From: Arcobacteraceae bacterium
GTDB taxonomy: Bacteria; Campylobacterota; Campylobacteria; Campylobacterales; Arcobacteraceae
DNA length: 63,489 bases
Reading direction: 5' to 3'
Assembly (NCBI GenBank): GCA_029934475.1
Contig: JAOZMC010000003.1
Coordinates: 1-63,489 of the forward strand
Positions 3,011 to 63,489 of this stretch are shown piece after piece. A model generated the notes under the pieces. The model ran no database searches and was not told the origin of the DNA. It was given only the letters and a program-made list of their open reading frames with translations. Every line of letters begins with the position of its first letter. Position 1 is the first letter of the stretch. The position numbers and the translations under genes are program-made.

Positions 3011-3046
3011 TTTTGCCAGATATTTAGAAAAATTGTCCAAAACACT

Positions 3047-54895: not shown

Positions 54896-55357
54896 TTAGA
54901 CAGCCAAACTACTAGTATCATCACATATCAATCTTTCTATAGCTACATCGTTTGCCTCTAAAAATTTTTTAGTTTCATCGCTATTTGTATGTTCGTATGA
55001 TTTGTCGTAGACAATTTTTTGTATGCCACTCGCTATGAGGTTTTTGACACACTGACTACAAGGCTCAAGTGTCACATATATGGTGCCACCATCTATAGCT
55101 ATGCCATTTTTAGCTGCCCATATTATAGCATTCATCTCGGCATGTATCTCGTATTGTTTTGACCACTCGTGGTGTTGGTCTGTATGTTTGCCGTCCCAAT
55201 ACTCTGTGCAGTTGGTGTATCCCGGTGGTGTACCGTTGTAGCCTGTAGATAGCACTCTACCATCTTTGACTATCACGGCACCTACCTTTTTAGATACACA
55301 TTTTGATGCTTTGGCAAGTTCTTTGGCTATGTTTATGAAGTTGCTATCAGTCAGCAT
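54896..55357 (-). CDS. Deoxycytidylate (dCMP) deaminase family
   Basis: Zinc-dependent deaminase giving dUMP for thymidylate synthesis, 153 aa. Zinc/catalytic motifs HAEMNAI and TLEPCSQCVKNL, with GYNGTPPGYTNC typical of dCMP deaminases (ComEB-like). Convergent with tonB; mrp lies 9 bp upstream. Confidence 0.92.
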   Translation of the reverse strand: MLTDSNFINIAKELAKASKCVSKKVGAVIVKDGRVLSTGYNGTPPGYTNCTEYWDGKHTDQHHEWSKQYEIHAEMNAIIWAAKNGIAIDGGTIYVTLEPCSQCVKNLIASGIQKIVYDKSYEHTNSDETKKFLEANDVAIERLICDDTSSLAV

Positions 55358-55366
55358 ACTACTTCG

Positions 55367-56521
55367 CTAATGCTCACATCCACAGCCATCGTGAGCGGGT
55401 TTTTCGCTAGCTGGTTTCGCTCCTGCTGTGCTACATGCACTAGCTCCTCCTATGGTCGGCTGTATGGAGCTGTTGTCTGCTTGGCTGTTTTCTATAGTTT
55501 GCCATAACTTACTAGCCGCTATCATAAATCGTTTGGATGTCTCAACTTCGGGCTGTATAAATACGATAGGTTTGCCAGTATCTCCAGATACTCGTATGCT
55601 AGGCTCTATCGGTATATCGCCTAGCACTTGTGTGTCAAACTCTTTTGCTAGCTCTTCGCATGTGCCTTTGCCAAATATATCTGACTCGGTTTGGCAACTA
55701 GGACAGATAAACCCTGACATATTTTCGACTATTCCAGCTATAGGTATGTGCAACTTTTTGAACATCTCCAAACTTCTACGGCTATCGTCTAGTGCTACAT
55801 GCTGTGGAGTAGTCACATTGACCCCTACAGACACTGGCACACTTTGGGCTAGTGTCAGCTGTGCATCGCCAGTTCCGGGTGGCATATCTATGACAAGCAC
55901 ATCTAGGTCACCCCATATGATATCTCGCAGTAGTTGCTCTATAGCTTTCATGACCATAGCTCCTCGCCATATGAGTGCTTGTCCTGGTTCCATCAAGCTA
56001 CCCATAGACATAACCTTGACTCCATATGCTTCATACGGCACTATCTTTTGTCCCTGTATTTGTGGCTCTTTGTGATCAAGTCCCATCATACGAGGTATGT
56101 TTGGACCGTATATATCGGCATCTAGTAGTCCTACCTTTTTGCCTTGCATAGCCATAGCTACTGCTAAGTTTACCGATGTGGTTGATTTGCCCACGCCACC
56201 TTTGCCTGAGCTTATCATGACGAAGTTTTTGACTGTGGGAGCTATGTTTTTGCCGCTTTGTGAGTTGCTACTTTGTTTTGGCGCTTGTGGTTTGTCTATG
56301 ATCACATTTGCCTTTAGTCCCATAGATGCTAGCTCTTTGGCTATATCTTCTCGCAAACTTGCCTCTACTTCTACTGCTGACGATGTGATGACTAGTGATA
56401 TAGTCGCCGTGCCATCCGCTAGCTGTATATTTTTTACAAAATCAAAGTCAACTATTGACTTTGAAAATCCTGGATAATAGACATTTTTTAACTTCTCTTT
56501 TATCGTATCGATATTTTTCAT
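55367..56521 (-). CDS. mrp: Iron-sulfur cluster carrier ATPase Mrp/ApbC
   Basis: P-loop NTPase that carries and inserts Fe-S clusters, 384 aa. DUF59/MIP18 N-terminal domain, deviant Walker A SGKGGVGKST (about 109-118), Walker B-like DVLVIDMPPG, and the CPSC cluster ligand motif. The tail after about 350 is Ala/Gly/Ser-rich and ends CGCEH. Probably supports the Fe-S enzymes here (IlvD, Rieske, HemN). Confidence 0.95.
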   Translation of the reverse strand: MKNIDTIKEKLKNVYYPGFSKSIVDFDFVKNIQLADGTATISLVITSSAVEVEASLREDIAKELASMGLKANVIIDKPQAPKQSSNSQSGKNIAPTVKNFVMISSGKGGVGKSTTSVNLAVAMAMQGKKVGLLDADIYGPNIPRMMGLDHKEPQIQGQKIVPYEAYGVKVMSMGSLMEPGQALIWRGAMVMKAIEQLLRDIIWGDLDVLVIDMPPGTGDAQLTLAQSVPVSVGVNVTTPQHVALDDSRRSLEMFKKLHIPIAGIVENMSGFICPSCQTESDIFGKGTCEELAKEFDTQVLGDIPIEPSIRVSGDTGKPIVFIQPEVETSKRFMIAASKLWQTIENSQADNSSIQPTIGGASACSTAGAKPASEKPAHDGCGCEH

Positions 56522-56583
56522 TTTATTCCTTTTTCATTTTGAAATCATTTATACCAAAACAAACTTAATCTAACTCAAAAATT

Positions 56584-58374
56584 TTAGTCAAGCTTCAAAA
56601 CCGCCATAAATGCTTCTTGTGGGACATTTACTTTGCCTATAGCTTTCATCCGTTTTTTGCCTGCTTTTTGTTTGTCTAGTAGCTTTCGTTTTCTTGATAT
56701 ATCTCCGCCATAACATTTAGCAGTGACATTTTTGCCTGTGGATTTGACAGTCTCTCTGGCTATCACTTCACCACCAAGTGAGGCTTGTATCGCTACTTCA
56801 AACAGCTGTTTGGGTATGAGCTCTTTGAGTTTTTTGACAAACTGCCTGCCTCGTGCTACTGCTTTGCTCTGTGGCACGATGATACTTAGGGCATCTACAC
56901 TCTCTTTGGCTACTAGCACATCTAGTCGCTTGAGGTCTCCAGGGCGAAAATCTATGATATCGTAGTCAAAGCTGGCATATCCTTTGGTGGTTGACTTTAG
57001 TTTGTCATAAAAGTCCATGACTATCTCGTTCATAGGTATCTCGTATTCTAAAAGCACACGAGAGTTGATATAGTCCATCTTGGTCTGGATACCCCGCTTG
57101 TCGTTTAAAAGTTTGATGACATTGCCTAGAAACTCATCTGGCACTAGTATCGTAGCTTTGACATATGGTTCATATATCTTGTCTATCTTGGACGGAGCTG
57201 GTAGTTGCGATGGATTTTCCACAAATAGCTCCACGCCATCTGTCTGTAGTACTTTGTATACCACCGTAGGAGCAGTAGCTATGAGGTCAAGGTCAAACTC
57301 TCGCTCAAGTCGCTCCTTGACGACCTCCATATGCAACATACCCAAAAACCCAGTGCGAAATCCACTACCCAAAGCTGTGGAGCTTTCAGGCTCAAACGAT
57401 ATAGAGCTGTCGTTTAGCTGAAGTTTATTGAGTGCTTCTCTTAACTCCTCAAACTTATCTGTATCCACTGGATATATACCAGCAAATACAAACGGCTTGG
57501 CTGGTTCAAATCCACTTATGCTTTCAGTCGTAGGATTTTTGGCATCGGTCAGGGTATCGCCTACTACTACGCTCTGTGTAGTTTTCAGCCCCAACACCAC
57601 TATACCTATCTCGCCTGTCTTTAACTGCTCTGTTTTGATATTTTTAAGTGGATGCGGATATAGTAGATCTAGGACTTTGTGAGTTTCATCTGTGTTTATC
57701 ATCTTTATGGATTGGTTTTTTTGTATAGTGCCATCATATACTCGCACCAAAGCTAAAGCTCCTAGATAATTGTCAAACCAGCTATCATATATGAGTGCCT
57801 TGGTAGGTTTAGCTGTGTCGCCTTGAGGGGCAGGAATAATCTCTATAATATCGTCTATAAGTTGCTTGACTCCTACACCAGTTTTGGCAGATATCAAGTT
57901 GTGGTGGGTGCAGTCCAAACCTATAGCCTCTTCTGTCTCTTCTAGCACTCGCATAGGATCAGCAGATGGCAGGTCGATTTTGTTTACCACTGGCATGAGG
58001 GTTAGGCCATTGTCAAATGCTATATAGACATTTGCTATAGTTTGTGCTTGGACTCCTTGGGTGCTATCTATGATGAGTATCGCCCCCTCGCTAGAGGCTA
58101 AACTTCGGCTGACCTCATAGCTAAAATCTACATGCCCTGGGGTGTCTATGAGATTTAGCACATATTTTTGACCATCTTTGGTGTAGTTTAGTCTCACGCT
58201 TTGTGCCTTTATCGTGATGCCACGCTCCTGTTCTATATCCATAGTATCCATCATCTGAGCTGTGATGAGCCTGTCATCTACTGCTTTGCATTCTTGGATA
58301 ATCCTATCTGCTAGAGTTGATTTACCGTGGTCTATGTGAGCTATGATAGAGAAGTTTCGTATATATTTTTGCAA
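56584..58374 (-). CDS. lepA: Elongation factor 4 (LepA)
   Basis: Ribosome-associated translational GTPase, 596 aa, full length. G1 [11 protein letters not shown]3 DTPGHVDF, G4 NKID, and the LepA C-terminal domain with [20 protein letters not shown]. The start is TTG at 58374 with GTAGGAC upstream. Confidence 0.96.
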
Positions 58375-58433
58375 CTTTTGTCCTACTTTTTCGCTATTTT
58401 ATCCAAACTATATAAAAGTATGGACTACGGACA

Positions 58434-58835
58434 CTATTTGATTGTTTTTTTGCCTTTGTCTATCCAACCATAGTTGATACCGCCGTCTAGTTCGCTAACT
58501 TTTGTATATCCTATATCTGACAAAAATTTGCCCACTACCTTTGTCCTGTTTGCATGAGCACACACTAACACAAACGGCTGTCTCTTTGTCTTGACTATCT
58601 TTGTAAATTTTGCCATCCAAGCATCTGGGTCATAAGCACCACGACTATCAAAAAATGTAAGTTTATGGCTACCCTTTATCACGCCATATCGTTTATATTC
58701 ATCGTCTCGTCTTATGTCTATGATAGCTATCTTGCCATCTTTGACTATCTGTTCTACATCGCTAGTGCTTATCGTCTTGAAATCCGCCATCGCAAATACT
58801 CCTACTATTAAAATCAAAATTAATTTTTTCATCAT
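58434..58835 (-). CDS. Periplasmic rhodanese-domain protein
   Basis: 133-aa single-domain sulfurtransferase with a signal peptide (KKLILILIVGVFAMA). The active-site loop reads VCAHANRTKVV, with the catalytic Cys present though not the common CxxGxR form. Likely handles periplasmic sulfur; the exact substrate is unknown. Divergent from the accessory genes to the right. Confidence 0.85.
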   Translation of the reverse strand: MMKKLILILIVGVFAMADFKTISTSDVEQIVKDGKIAIIDIRRDDEYKRYGVIKGSHKLTFFDSRGAYDPDAWMAKFTKIVKTKRQPFVLVCAHANRTKVVGKFLSDIGYTKVSELDGGINYGWIDKGKKTIK

Positions 58836-58880: not shown

Positions 58881-58906
58881 CACAAGCAGACATTATGTTG
58901 TCGCAT
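58881..58906. repeat. 26-bp direct repeat, left copy
   Basis: CACAAGCAGACATTATGTTG followed by TCGCAT. It matches 60786-60811 with one mismatch. It contains a GACA...TGTC inverted core. It lies 15 bp beyond the TOPRIM stop and 45 bp upstream of the rhodanese start. Confidence 0.85.
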
Positions 58907-58907
58907 G

Positions 58908-58923
58908 AGTTGGATAACCAACT
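58908..58923 (-). terminator. Hairpin at the end of the TOPRIM gene
   Basis: Perfect 6-bp inverted repeat AGTTGG/CCAACT with ATAA loop, spanning the TOPRIM stop (58922-58924) and abutting the left direct repeat. No T-run follows, so it may instead be a recombination or boundary structure. Confidence 0.4.
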
Positions 58924-59629
58924 AATCAAACAGCTTCAAAAATATTTTTAGCTCATCTAAAACAGCATCTTCAAAATTCCATATATTTTTTTTGATAGTT
59001 TTTTCGTTGCTTTTTAAAATATGTTGTATTTCATCGGTATTGTCAGTATTGTTTATAAGTTCATTTGCACACTTTTTTGATTTCTGTTTTCTATCTTTGC
59101 CGATACAAGTATCATATCTTAGATAATTACTCACCCAAACTTTGTCAAACTCTTTATCTTTTATTTGTTCACCTTTAGCTTCTAAACAACTTTTCCATTT
59201 AGTTAGACAATCAGCATAAACAGAATCCTGTGATTTTACCTTTTTCATCACTGTTTCAAGTTCTCCATATCCATCTATATTTGTGATATAACATGCTATA
59301 CTCAAGTCTAAAGTCTCGCTTCTTTTTAGTTGATTTGTTTTGTCAAGCACTACATCATCGCAAATACTTTTGACAGCCTCGTCAATAAACCCAACCCGAC
59401 TATCTATACCTACATCGTCTGCATCAATAACAATACCAATTTTATTGTATTTATCAAGTTTGAGCGATTTTAAGTTGGCAGTAAGTTTAGTATATCCACC
59501 CAAACAATCAAAATCATCAATTTTACAAATCGGTATACCAACTTTTATATTTGATAAATTTAAGCTATCTATCAATGCTTCGATAAAATATTTGTCATTT
59601 TCACTTTCTACTATGATTAGATTACTCAC
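58922..59629 (-). CDS. TOPRIM-domain (DUF3226-like) protein
   Basis: 235 aa. IVESENDKYFI supplies the TOPRIM Glu and GIVIDADDVG the D-x-D motif, so the metal-binding nuclease/primase-like core appears intact; the C-terminal part is helical and Lys-rich. It overlaps the AAA ATPase gene by 8 bp. ATPase + TOPRIM pairs (OLD, PARIS-like AriA/AriB, Gabija-like) are known anti-phage systems; assignment here is by architecture, not by recognised close homology. Confidence 0.75.
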   Translation of the reverse strand: MSNLIIVESENDKYFIEALIDSLNLSNIKVGIPICKIDDFDCLGGYTKLTANLKSLKLDKYNKIGIVIDADDVGIDSRVGFIDEAVKSICDDVVLDKTNQLKRSETLDLSIACYITNIDGYGELETVMKKVKSQDSVYADCLTKWKSCLEAKGEQIKDKEFDKVWVSNYLRYDTCIGKDRKQKSKKCANELINNTDNTDEIQHILKSNEKTIKKNIWNFEDAVLDELKIFLKLFD

Positions 59630-60668
59630 CTCTGATCTCTATGTTGTGTGATAATTCATATTTCAACTGTTCATTGTCTTTTTGTTTTGTAACTATTAGA
59701 TTGGTTTTTTTATCTCTATAAAATTCAAAATAACTGCCGTTGTTTTCTTGGTTGACTTCGTTGAAAACTTCTATACATTCTTTTGAGTGTGTAGTAGCAA
59801 AAACCTGACAATTTGCCATCTTGGAAACTTCAAATATAATATTCCATAATTTTGTATAATTTGAAAAATGAATACCATTTTCTATCTCGTCTATAAATAG
59901 ATAGCCATCTTTGCTCGCCCATATGGCACACAATATAGCAATATAACGATTTATACCTTCTCCTAGTGAAGACAATAATACTGGTAATTCTCTATTCTTT
60001 AAAGCAACTTTTAAAATTATATCTCTATGTGTGGCTTTTTGTTTTAATGCTACTAAATTTTTATCAAATAATTTTAAAGAATTATTTAAAAATTCTTCTT
60101 TATTTAAATCTATTAATTTACCATAAAGAATAGCGATGTCTCTTTCATCTGTAGCTGTAGAAGTGATAAAATTAATTTTTGATTTGATATTGCTGTTATG
60201 TTCTTTTCTAAGCATATAAGGTCTATGAATCAGTCTTTCAATAGGGATATTTCTTTCGTCAGAATCTACAGACAGTTTCAATGACGGTTGATATTCGCTT
60301 AACACATTTGATTCTTGAAAAAAATTGTCCATAATATCACCTTGTAAGGTATCTGTATATTCAATTTTTATATTTTTATCATTTACAGTAAGTTCGACTT
60401 CTGAACTATTTTCAAATATAAAATCCAGCTCAAAATATCTATTGCGTGTTGAAGTTGACTGCCTTCTTTTTATCATCTCGTGTACATTGAGGCTTAAGTC
60501 CAAACTATCGGTAGACGATACGGCTAGATGTATGCCCTCCATCAAAGATGTTTTTCCTATATTGTTTTTGCCACTTATTAGGTTGATTCTTTTGATATTG
60601 CTGACATTAATTTCCTCAAAGCATTTGAAGTTGCGAAATGTGAGATTTTCTACGAAATGATTTTTCAT
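59622..60668 (-). CDS. AAA/ABC-type ATPase (AAA_15/21-like), partner of TOPRIM protein
   Basis: 348-aa SMC/RecF-like ATPase. LTFRNFKCFEEINVSN at the N-terminus, Walker A SGKNNIGKTSL (about 32-42), signature-like SSLGEGINRYIAI, Walker B YLFIDEIENGIH and the switch His in ATTHSKEC. More A/T-rich than its neighbours. With the overlapping TOPRIM gene it forms a two-gene module bounded by direct repeats. SD AGAGGAACAAAG before the ATG. Confidence 0.85.
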   Translation of the reverse strand: MKNHFVENLTFRNFKCFEEINVSNIKRINLISGKNNIGKTSLMEGIHLAVSSTDSLDLSLNVHEMIKRRQSTSTRNRYFELDFIFENSSEVELTVNDKNIKIEYTDTLQGDIMDNFFQESNVLSEYQPSLKLSVDSDERNIPIERLIHRPYMLRKEHNSNIKSKINFITSTATDERDIAILYGKLIDLNKEEFLNNSLKLFDKNLVALKQKATHRDIILKVALKNRELPVLLSSLGEGINRYIAILCAIWASKDGYLFIDEIENGIHFSNYTKLWNIIFEVSKMANCQVFATTHSKECIEVFNEVNQENNGSYFEFYRDKKTNLIVTKQKDNEQLKYELSHNIEIRGE

Positions 60669-60785
60669 CTTTGTTCCTCTTTGTGTTTTATTGTATAGAT
60701 AGATTGTTTATCAACCAATATTATAGCTTAATTGTCTTAAACAACTCACAAAACATCAAAAATATCGGATTTTGTATAAATTTTG

Positions 60786-60811
60786 CACAAGCAGACATTA
60801 TGCTGTCGCAT
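60786..60811. repeat. 26-bp direct repeat, right copy
   Basis: CACAAGCAGACATTATGCTG followed by TCGCAT; one mismatch to 58881-58906. It lies 8 bp before a TATAAT box that drives the rightward genes. Confidence 0.85.
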
Positions 60812-60819
60812 TGATATGG

Positions 60820-60825
60820 TATAAT
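60820..60825 (+). promoter_or_regulatory. -10 element TATAAT for the right-hand small genes
   Basis: TATAAT in TATGGTATAATAGCC. The leader to ATG 60932 holds a second SD (AAAGGA, 60840-60845) followed by ATATGTAGTAG, where an ATG meets a stop at once; a 26-codon frame could start only at ATA 60850. Confidence 0.6.
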
Positions 60826-60931
60826 AGCCGAAACAAAACAAAGGATAGCATATGTAGTAGCGAAAAACAGACAGGACAAAGAGCAAAGAAAAAAATCAAG
60901 GCGAAAATATCGTCAACAAAAAAGGAATAAA

Positions 60932-61291
60932 ATGAAAGAAAACAGAGAAAATTTAAGCGGAACAAGACTCAAAAGCGATATATCGGTGCTAGACATAGTA
61001 GGCAATATCATAATATGGGTGCTGTTGTCTATAGTGACATTTGGGCTAGCTATGTTTGTGTTTTTGTATTTTTACAACAAGATGGTCATAAACCATACTT
61101 TTGTAGTAGACAAAGAGGACAAAAAAATAGGCAAGCTGTCGTGTGATATCGGTGTGGGACAAGCGATAGGGCATGGATTTATATGGTTTGTCATAACTAT
61201 AGTCACATTTGGATTTGGGATATTTTTCTATATGTACAAAGCAAATGCCTATGTCATGAGCCAAACCAAGGTAGAGATGTATGAAAAATAG
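60932..61291 (+). CDS. Small membrane protein with internal duplication (DUF898-like)
   Basis: 119 aa with two hydrophobic helices arranged as a repeat: IIIWVLLSIVTFGLAMFVFLY and, about 60 residues later, GFIWFVITIVTFGFGIFFYMY. Each is followed by an NxM/NAYV segment, recalling YjgN/DUF898 membrane proteins, which are larger. Function unknown. It overlaps the SH3 gene by 11 bp. Confidence 0.6.
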   Translation: MKENRENLSGTRLKSDISVLDIVGNIIIWVLLSIVTFGLAMFVFLYFYNKMVINHTFVVDKEDKKIGKLSCDIGVGQAIGHGFIWFVITIVTFGFGIFFYMYKANAYVMSQTKVEMYEK

Positions 61292-61631
61292 ATTTATAAT
61301 ATCAGCGATATTGGTCGTATCTATACAGACCATAGCCACAGCGACACCGCCAGTGCCTGACTATTGGCATATCAAAGGTGTGAAGTCAAACGACAGTTTG
61401 AGTATGAGAACACAGCCAAACCACAAGTCAAAAAAAATTGGCGAGATACCACACGATGCTAGATGTATCCAAAACTTGACGAGAAACGACCTGCGATGTG
61501 GCGGATACAAAAACGGCTGGTGCAAAGTAGCCTACGGATATGTAGCAGGGTGGGTAGCAGACAAATATCTCGAACCCGCATGGCTCGATGGTGGCGATGA
61601 GTTAGAAGATGACCCCAAATGCTTCAAGTAG
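61281..61631 (+). CDS. Secreted bacterial SH3-domain protein
   Basis: 116 aa; signal peptide (NRFIISAILVVSIQTIATA), then a bacterial SH3 domain: SLSMRTQPNHKSKKIGEIP and NGWCKVAYGYVAGWVADKYL. Such domains bind peptidoglycan or protein partners in the periplasm. Four cysteines could make disulfides. Overlaps genes on both sides, so is part of one operon. Confidence 0.75.
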   Translation: MKNRFIISAILVVSIQTIATATPPVPDYWHIKGVKSNDSLSMRTQPNHKSKKIGEIPHDARCIQNLTRNDLRCGGYKNGWCKVAYGYVAGWVADKYLEPAWLDGGDELEDDPKCFK

Positions 61632-62623: not shown

Positions 62624-63489
62624 ATGGCAGAAGAAAATGAAATAAATCAATTAGACTTAAAAAATATAATTCAATTGTTGGACTGTGATTTTATTGTTCC
62701 CGACTATCAAAGAGGATATCGTTGGACTTCAATACAAGTCAAGCAACTTTTAACGGATATTTGGGAATTTGCTAAAAAAGAAAATAAGAGCACTAGTGAA
62801 TTTTATTGTTTGCAACCTATTGTTGTAAAAAGAAGAGAAGAAAACAAATATGAAGTTATTGATGGTCAACAAAGATTAACAACAATTTATCTTATTTTAA
62901 AATTTATAGAAAGTGAACATTTAAGAAGAACTTTAAAAGAAGCATACAGTAAAAGCATTTTTAAAATAGATTATGATATTAGGAAAAATAGCAAGACTTT
63001 TTTAGAAAAGGTAGGAGATAATATCATTGATTGTGATTGCAATATTGATTTCTTTCACATTTGTGAAAGCTATAAAGCAATAAAGTCTTGGTTTCAAGAG
63101 AATAACTTTGATTTTAATTCATACAATAAACTTTTAGCTACTTTTTTAGCAAAAGAAGATATAGAATTTCCTGTTAAAGTCATTTGGTATGAAATAGAGG
63201 CAAAAGATAATTCAGCGATTGATATTTTTGTACGTTTAAATATTGGCAAGATACCGTTAACAAACTCAGAGCTAATCAAGGCCTTGTTTTTACAAAAAGA
63301 TAATTTTTCTGACAAGCAGGCAAGTTTAAAACAAATTCAAATTGCTTCAGAATGGGATACTATTGAGAAAACATTGCAAGATAATTCATTCTGGTTATTT
63401 ATTAACAACCCTAATAACTCAATTAAATATGAAAATAGAATTGAATATATCTTTGATTTGATGAAAAAACGTAAAATAGACCCTGAGCT
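62624..63489 (+). CDS. DUF262 (GmrS-like) protein, cut by window edge
   Basis: N-terminal 288 codons of a DUF262 protein running off the right edge. IVPDYQRGYRW, VIDGQQRLTTIYL (the DGQQR motif, a DNase-ParB-like NTPase/nuclease site) and FVRLNIGKIPLTNSELIKAL are typical. Such proteins form type IV restriction enzymes (GmrSD, with DUF1524) or BREX-/SspE-related defences. Much A/T-richer than neighbours, suggesting transfer. SD AAGGATAGTGAAA before ATG 62624. Confidence 0.88.
   Translation, partial: MAEENEINQLDLKNIIQLLDCDFIVPDYQRGYRWTSIQVKQLLTDIWEFAKKENKSTSEFYCLQPIVVKRREENKYEVIDGQQRLTTIYLILKFIESEHLRRTLKEAYSKSIFKIDYDIRKNSKTFLEKVGDNIIDCDCNIDFFHICESYKAIKSWFQENNFDFNSYNKLLATFLAKEDIEFPVKVIWYEIEAKDNSAIDIFVRLNIGKIPLTNSELIKALFLQKDNFSDKQASLKQIQIASEWDTIEKTLQDNSFWLFINNPNNSIKYENRIEYIFDLMKKRKIDPE

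Follow-up and report, generated by a model that had tools for sequence, protein, structure and literature searches.

On present evidence, the sequence identifies the two 26-bp direct repeats that bracket an AAA-TOPRIM gene pair in this Arcobacteraceae contig as copies of a WYL-type promoter rather than as scars of a mobile element. In the full explanation, to which we assign a probability of roughly 0.8, the promoter is activated by a WYL-domain protein, the right copy is live, the left copy has decayed, and the AAA-TOPRIM pair was placed between them by recombination.

An earlier note on this DNA had described 26-bp direct repeats at the two edges of a two-gene module. Such repeats are indeed present at both ends of the AAA-TOPRIM interval; they are 25/26 identical, lie 1905 bp apart, are both on the plus strand, and their likeness reaches 34 bp at 88%. 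Allowing up to 3 mismatches to the repeat, we found two matches in the window (i.e., the whole stretch of 63,489 nucleotides that was analysed) and none in shuffled sequence, and the pair is far above chance. A search for further copies in the genome's own assembly (1.52 Mb, 97% complete; all own-genome statistics are pattern searches) returned just these two at the same threshold. The symmetric GACA/TGTC core that had been pointed out is likewise real, forming a dyad GACA-N6-TGTC. The features of the locus, in window coordinates, are as follows.

58434-58835, minus strand: rhodanese-domain protein of 133 aa, left flank (PF00581, E = 3e-15)
58881-58906, plus strand: left copy of CACAAGCAGACATTATG(T/C)TGTCGCAT
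58889-58902, plus strand: dyad of the left copy, GACATTATGTTGTC, in an apparently decayed WYL-type promoter
58922-59629, minus strand: TOPRIM protein (DUF3226) of 235 aa, like the second gene of AbiL and PDC-M38B (PF11536, 4.8e-20; PDC-M38B, 3.3e-9)
59622-60668, minus strand: AAA ATPase of the OLD/AbiLi/AAA_15 type, 348 aa (AbiLi, 6.6e-54; PDC-M38A, 2.3e-53)
60786-60811, plus strand: right copy of CACAAGCAGACATTATG(T/C)TGTCGCAT
60794-60807, plus strand: dyad of the right copy, GACATTATGCTGTC, predicted operator part of the intact DUF6693-operon promoter
60820-60825, plus strand: -10 hexamer TATAAT, 12 bp past the TGTC half-site, without a recognisable -35
60932-61291, plus strand: DUF6693 small membrane protein, first ORF of the right-copy operon (PF20403, 1.7e-36)
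61281-61631, plus strand: weakly SH3_3-like protein of 116 aa
61885-62550, plus strand: 221-aa protein of no recognised family, conserved in the relative G001
62624-63489, plus strand: GmrSD/DUF262-type restriction protein, truncated by the contig end

The two-gene AAA-TOPRIM module of the note consists of an AAA gene and a DUF3226 TOPRIM gene, which overlap on the minus strand. Having an AbiLi-type ATPase with an adjoining TOPRIM partner (6.6e-54 and 4.8e-20, respectively), the pair is probably an AbiL-like phage-defence gene pair by homology. The AbiL (AbiLi/AbiLii) and other OLD-type pairs show the same arrangement of an AAA gene overlapping a DUF3226 TOPRIM gene, recognised here by sequence, and the present pair is unusual among them only in lying between two promoter copies. 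The TOPRIM, DUF6693 and 221-aa proteins received no informative name from NCBIfam. The SH3_3-like gene is a mosaic partner in the operon, with 85% DNA identity to G003 and a different gene in its place in G001.

The right copy has a feature that the note did not mention. Exactly 12 bp separate its TGTC half-site from a TATAAT -10 hexamer, beyond which the DUF6693 operon follows, and the dyad is centred near -31.5, ending 12 bp upstream of the -10. Read in this way, the right copy is a predicted promoter-operator of the form GACAT-N5-TGTC-N12-TATAAT, which would drive an operon of the DUF6693, SH3, 221-aa and GmrSD genes. A sigma-70 consensus scan did not call this promoter, as it found no -35/-10 pair there, a result that is expected for an activator-dependent promoter. 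In the leader between the promoter and the first ORF (60850-60857), a start codon is followed directly by a stop (ATATGTAG). The same ATATGTAG stands in the leaders of L051 (~8340), L050 (~2636 and 8108) and L049 (~6918), in four genomes overall, at or near the position where the AAA genes begin; a relic and a start-stop mini-ORF are both conceivable.

A search with the 26-bp sequence (up to 3 mismatches) in 60 genomes from the same family and order found it restricted to this genus, with two copies in the window's own genome and one in G001. A looser form of the element is present in all four genus genomes, before several operons. More specifically, G001 has one copy before the DUF6693 gene, with no AAA-TOPRIM module there, and a second one ahead of a tandem AAA gene; G002, which lacks the module, has four, before the DUF6693 gene, a PD-(D/E)XK gene, an AAA gene and, on the other strand, a small lipoprotein gene; in G003 there are two, one ahead of a membrane/lipoprotein/SH3 operon and one ahead of an AAA gene; and the window's own genome has a further element before an AAA gene that is followed by type I restriction genes. 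When the 11 genus sites were aligned, GACAT and TGTC were invariant, and 10 of them had TATAAT or TACAAT exactly 12 bases downstream. By their sequence, the genus copies are to be read as promoters rather than insertion scars. The note had named a genome-wide intergenic element as an outcome that would speak against its reading: as a simple repeat, with two copies, the sequence is no such element, but at the looser level of a promoter motif it is one. The loose promoter pattern (2 mismatches in 15 letters) gave counts similar to the control across the 60 genomes, and only exact matches are informative there. The tandem AAA gene is a single ORF of 704-710 aa in G001 and G002 and is split into two ORFs in the window's own genome (304-1212 and 1249-2457 of L102, G000:C34), a split that reflects either a frameshift or an error of assembly.

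In G001 and G002, the AAA gene driven by the element has a WYL-domain regulator (HTH_11, WYL and WCX domains) as its neighbour, and in G003 the WYL gene lies away from the elements of that genome. A small Cas2/VapD-like gene separates the WYL gene of G001 from the AAA promoter (L103, 2427-2717, minus strand; G001:C104). The window's own genome yielded no close WYL orthologue, just a paralogue at ~31%; its contig C34, however, starts at DNA whose counterpart in G002 sits 37 bp after the stop codon of the WYL gene, and its WYL gene may thus have been lost in an assembly gap.

The association with WYL genes extends beyond the genus. WYL homologues in other genera and families (27-59% identity) have a nearly invariant recognition helix, TIQRD. 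We scanned 39 loci of such homologues (246 kb) for the dyad and the N12 geometry, using first-order Markov controls. Dyads with an inner spacing of 6 numbered 28, versus at most 6 at any other spacing, and the dyad with TAnnnT at N12 occurred 24 times, versus 0-8 at the 17 other spacings tested. The Markov controls gave 0.25 such N12 sites, and 98 kb of other loci gave one; the exact site was absent from 27 of the 39 loci. Across 100 genomes, exact GACAN6TGTCN12TATAAT was found at 49 sites, versus one for the reversed pattern, and for 14 of the 49 a WYL homologue was no more than 5 kb away (0.17 expected). What can be read from the DNA is thus that the element exists with a constant geometry, that it recurs beside WYL genes and that it does not depend on the AAA-TOPRIM module.

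In G061, G078, G018 and G020, successive genes each have an element promoter directly past the preceding stop codon, which indicates that repeats at gene boundaries are the normal look of such a regulon. Runs of genes with their own GACA-N6-TGTC-N12-TAnnnT promoters were seen at L188, L191, L189, L190 and L186 (G061, G078, G018, G020 and G077); their layout, one promoter per gene, resembles that of integron cassettes, and many of the products have no Pfam match. The genes under the element include those for Sir2, AAA_5, a ResIII helicase, an ExoX-like exonuclease, DUF2779 and an IetA-like AAA protein. G005 encodes a Cas9-like protein of type II-B (Cas9b, 1.3e-85) behind a WYL-type promoter, with a WYL gene adjoining (L138, G005:C1, 2-2806, minus strand; promoter site at 3016). 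With Sir2, AAA_5, helicase, exonuclease, DUF2779, IetA-like and Cas9-like products among it, the cargo of the predicted regulon is, judged by homology, a mixture of defence and DNA-processing functions, not defence alone.

How a WYL protein would act at this element can be judged from described systems. A profile built from the WYL proteins matched DriD (8tp8, 4.1e-10) and PafBC (6sj9, 7.6e-10) best among PDB entries, with the one other full-length regulator among the hits, 7qfz, at 5.7e-4; phmmer with a single WYL protein gave no PDB match, whereas the profile search did. Single-stranded DNA activates PafBC, which is positioned between the DNA and sigma domain 4 (PMC11804915); the PafBC motif in mycobacteria is TGTCGG-N10-TA-N3-T (PMC8151990). 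As at the sites described here, PafBC-dependent (RecA-NDp) promoters have TGTC exactly 12 bp before TAnnnT and need no canonical -35, and PafBC, like the candidate regulator, belongs to the WYL family and has a WCX domain. It is, however, a heterodimer on a non-palindromic site, in contrast to the palindrome GACA-N6-TGTC, which fits a homodimer and comes from a different phylum. DriD binds as a homodimer to a palindrome that lies partly over the -35, with its distance to the -10 fixed (PMC12340889). The DriD regulon of Caulobacter thus shares with the present one an HTH-WYL-WCX factor, a palindrome over the -35 and a fixed distance to the -10; it differs in its consensus (ATACGAC-N7-GTCGTAT versus GACA-N6-TGTC) and in that the genes regulated here include defence-type genes. 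Three hallmarks of the PafBC/DriD type are present, namely an HTH-WYL-WCX regulator near the sites (G001, G002), TGTC-N12-TAnnnT without a good -35, and an occurrence of the sites that goes with WYL genes. By analogy with these systems, a WYL dimer would occupy the -35 region by binding GACA-N6-TGTC 12 bp ahead of the -10. It would most likely activate sigma-70 RNA polymerase where a promoter has no -35, as DriD and PafBC do in answer to their known signal, single-stranded DNA arising from damage.

The principal competitor is that the element is the operator of a WYL repressor of the BrxR/CapW type, which would block the promoter until phage infection. Repression is known for WYL proteins that adjoin defence islands (PMC9122601, PMC9122588), and the element-driven genes include type I restriction, PD-(D/E)XK and GmrSD genes. 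The BrxR and CapW regulators of BREX and CBASS, moreover, resemble the present system in being defence-island WYL proteins with palindromic operators, more than one per island. The position of the dyad nevertheless makes repression less likely: the operators of CapW overlap the -10 and that of BrxR follows a predicted -10, both acting in repression (PMC9122588, PMC9122601), whereas the dyad lies neither over nor downstream of the -10 but upstream of it, near -31.5 and at the fixed N12. In addition, no -35 is recognisable at the element promoter, and the WYL profile fits DriD and PafBC better than 7qfz. Because of the PafBC spacing, the DriD geometry, the PDB matches and the positions of the CapW and BrxR operators, activation is favoured, with repression as its main rival. 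Binding of the WYL protein to the element, and activation over repression, are thus what the analogy suggests, and we infer from it a regulon of defence and DNA-processing genes that a WYL homodimer would activate.

The left copy would be a duplicate of this WYL-activated promoter that has lost its -10. The 10 nt beyond its 26 (GAGTTGGATA) agree with the live DUF6693 promoter of G001, where TACAAT comes next; set out from the dyad, the left copy continues with GCATGAGTTGGATA, compared with GCATGAGTTGGATACAAT in the G001 promoter, an agreement of 10 bases past the 26 in which the right copy does not share. At the -10 position itself, the left copy reads TAACCA (58915-58920). Taken together, the G001 match past the 26 and the TAACCA indicate a genuine promoter duplicate, decayed or cut, that lacks its -10. 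The copy is oriented antisense to the TOPRIM gene, running into the 3' end of that gene, and there is no ORF downstream of the copy in its direction. Since its dyad is intact, the left copy might still work, for example as an operator for WYL control of the AAA-TOPRIM pair or of the rhodanese gene. This is quite improbable, given the TAACCA at the -10 place, the missing downstream ORF, and the lack of TAnnnT at N12 on either strand. The AAA-TOPRIM pair, furthermore, has a putative promoter of its own, a TATAAT ~50 bp upstream of the AAA start that reads in the opposite direction.

The note had proposed that so long a repeat reflects site-specific integration at an att core or homologous exchange at a hotspot. 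In the former case, the copies would be the attL and attR of a small integrated element carrying the AAA-TOPRIM pair, with the recombinase acting in trans. Two near-identical direct copies around the pair, inverted arms about a 6-bp centre that resemble a tyrosine-recombinase core, and the occurrence of just two copies in the genome (up to 3 mismatches) fit that proposal. Against it, the repeat is a promoter element with a fixed N12 to its -10 that precedes unrelated operons in four genomes, is present in one or several copies in genomes whose site lacks the module, and goes with WYL genes across the order. Collections of phages, plasmids and viral contigs held nothing similar to the repeat. 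The other AbiL-type modules that could be examined had no shared-repeat bracket, except for one tandem array with an unrelated repeat of 18 bp, a comparison limited by some loci being too short at one end. As the note had observed, no integrase lies inside; only the AAA and TOPRIM genes are found between the copies. Given the lack of a viral, phage or plasmid match, of a bracket at other AbiL modules and of a recombinase in the interval, site-specific integration is neither needed nor supported, and we consider an att origin very unlikely. Equally unlikely is a Crp/Fnr-family site: Crp sites have the half-site spacing of GACA-N6-TGTC, a crp-tlp pair is divergent from DUF6693 in G001 and a crp-like 3' fragment occupies the same place in G002, but the element follows WYL genes outside the genus, the crp gene of G003 is on another contig, apart from the elements, and we rejected this candidate as the cross-genus WYL association fits better.

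Homologous exchange would be compatible with a locus that varies between relatives. The note had suggested looking for an empty site, and G001 comes close, with one copy before DUF6693 and no module, but its other flank is tlp/crp, not rhodanese; an empty site with both identical flanks was not found among the genus relatives. The note's other objection, copies in strains lacking the module, nearly applies, in that G001 has a single copy there and G002 has four. In G001, the DUF6693 operon adjoins tlp/crp, and the rhodanese gene has a DUF302-like neighbour at a different place; G002 has the 5' part of its rhodanese gene 1.1 kb ahead of DUF6693, with small Cys-rich genes between. The G002 rhodanese gene is broken, its 5' part being at L050 1378-1475 and its 3' part on another contig (G002:C1:108226-108540). 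LepA-rhodanese is inverted relative to Mrp-deaminase between the window's own genome and G001 (window 54896-58835 versus L104), and the DUF302-like gene beside the G001 rhodanese is missing from the former. The GmrSD (DUF262) gene of G001 is a second repeat-bracketed defence gene at the locus, lying between 78% identical duplicates of the 221-aa gene's 3' end plus spacer (L004, 8517-8590 and 10530-10710). We infer that the AAA-TOPRIM pair probably landed by recombination in a variable locus in which promoters repeat, and was so placed between two promoter copies; insertion into one promoter copy would be an alternative route to the same bracket.

A literature search on WYL proteins in Campylobacterota found nothing on such a regulon, and a Campylobacterota WYL regulon with GACA-N6-TGTC-N12-TATAAT is apparently undescribed so far. 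A wider proposal, which we advance tentatively and rate at somewhat under even odds, is that homodimeric WYL activators with PafBC-like geometry control arrays of single defence and DNA-processing genes switched on by single-stranded DNA, the promoters serving as homology handles for cassette exchange.

What had looked like a mobile-element scar thereby becomes a readable regulatory code, in that the palindrome with its fixed spacing predicts WYL-regulon genes in many Campylobacterota, including genes for restriction, AAA, PD-(D/E)XK, Sir2, ExoX, helicase and type II-B Cas9 proteins. The finding also calls for caution, as the direct repeats that flank a defence module can turn out to be shared promoters instead of att sites. 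If the activator reading is true, it would link defence genes to a signal of the DNA-damage type and would place PafBC-spaced promoters outside the actinobacteria.
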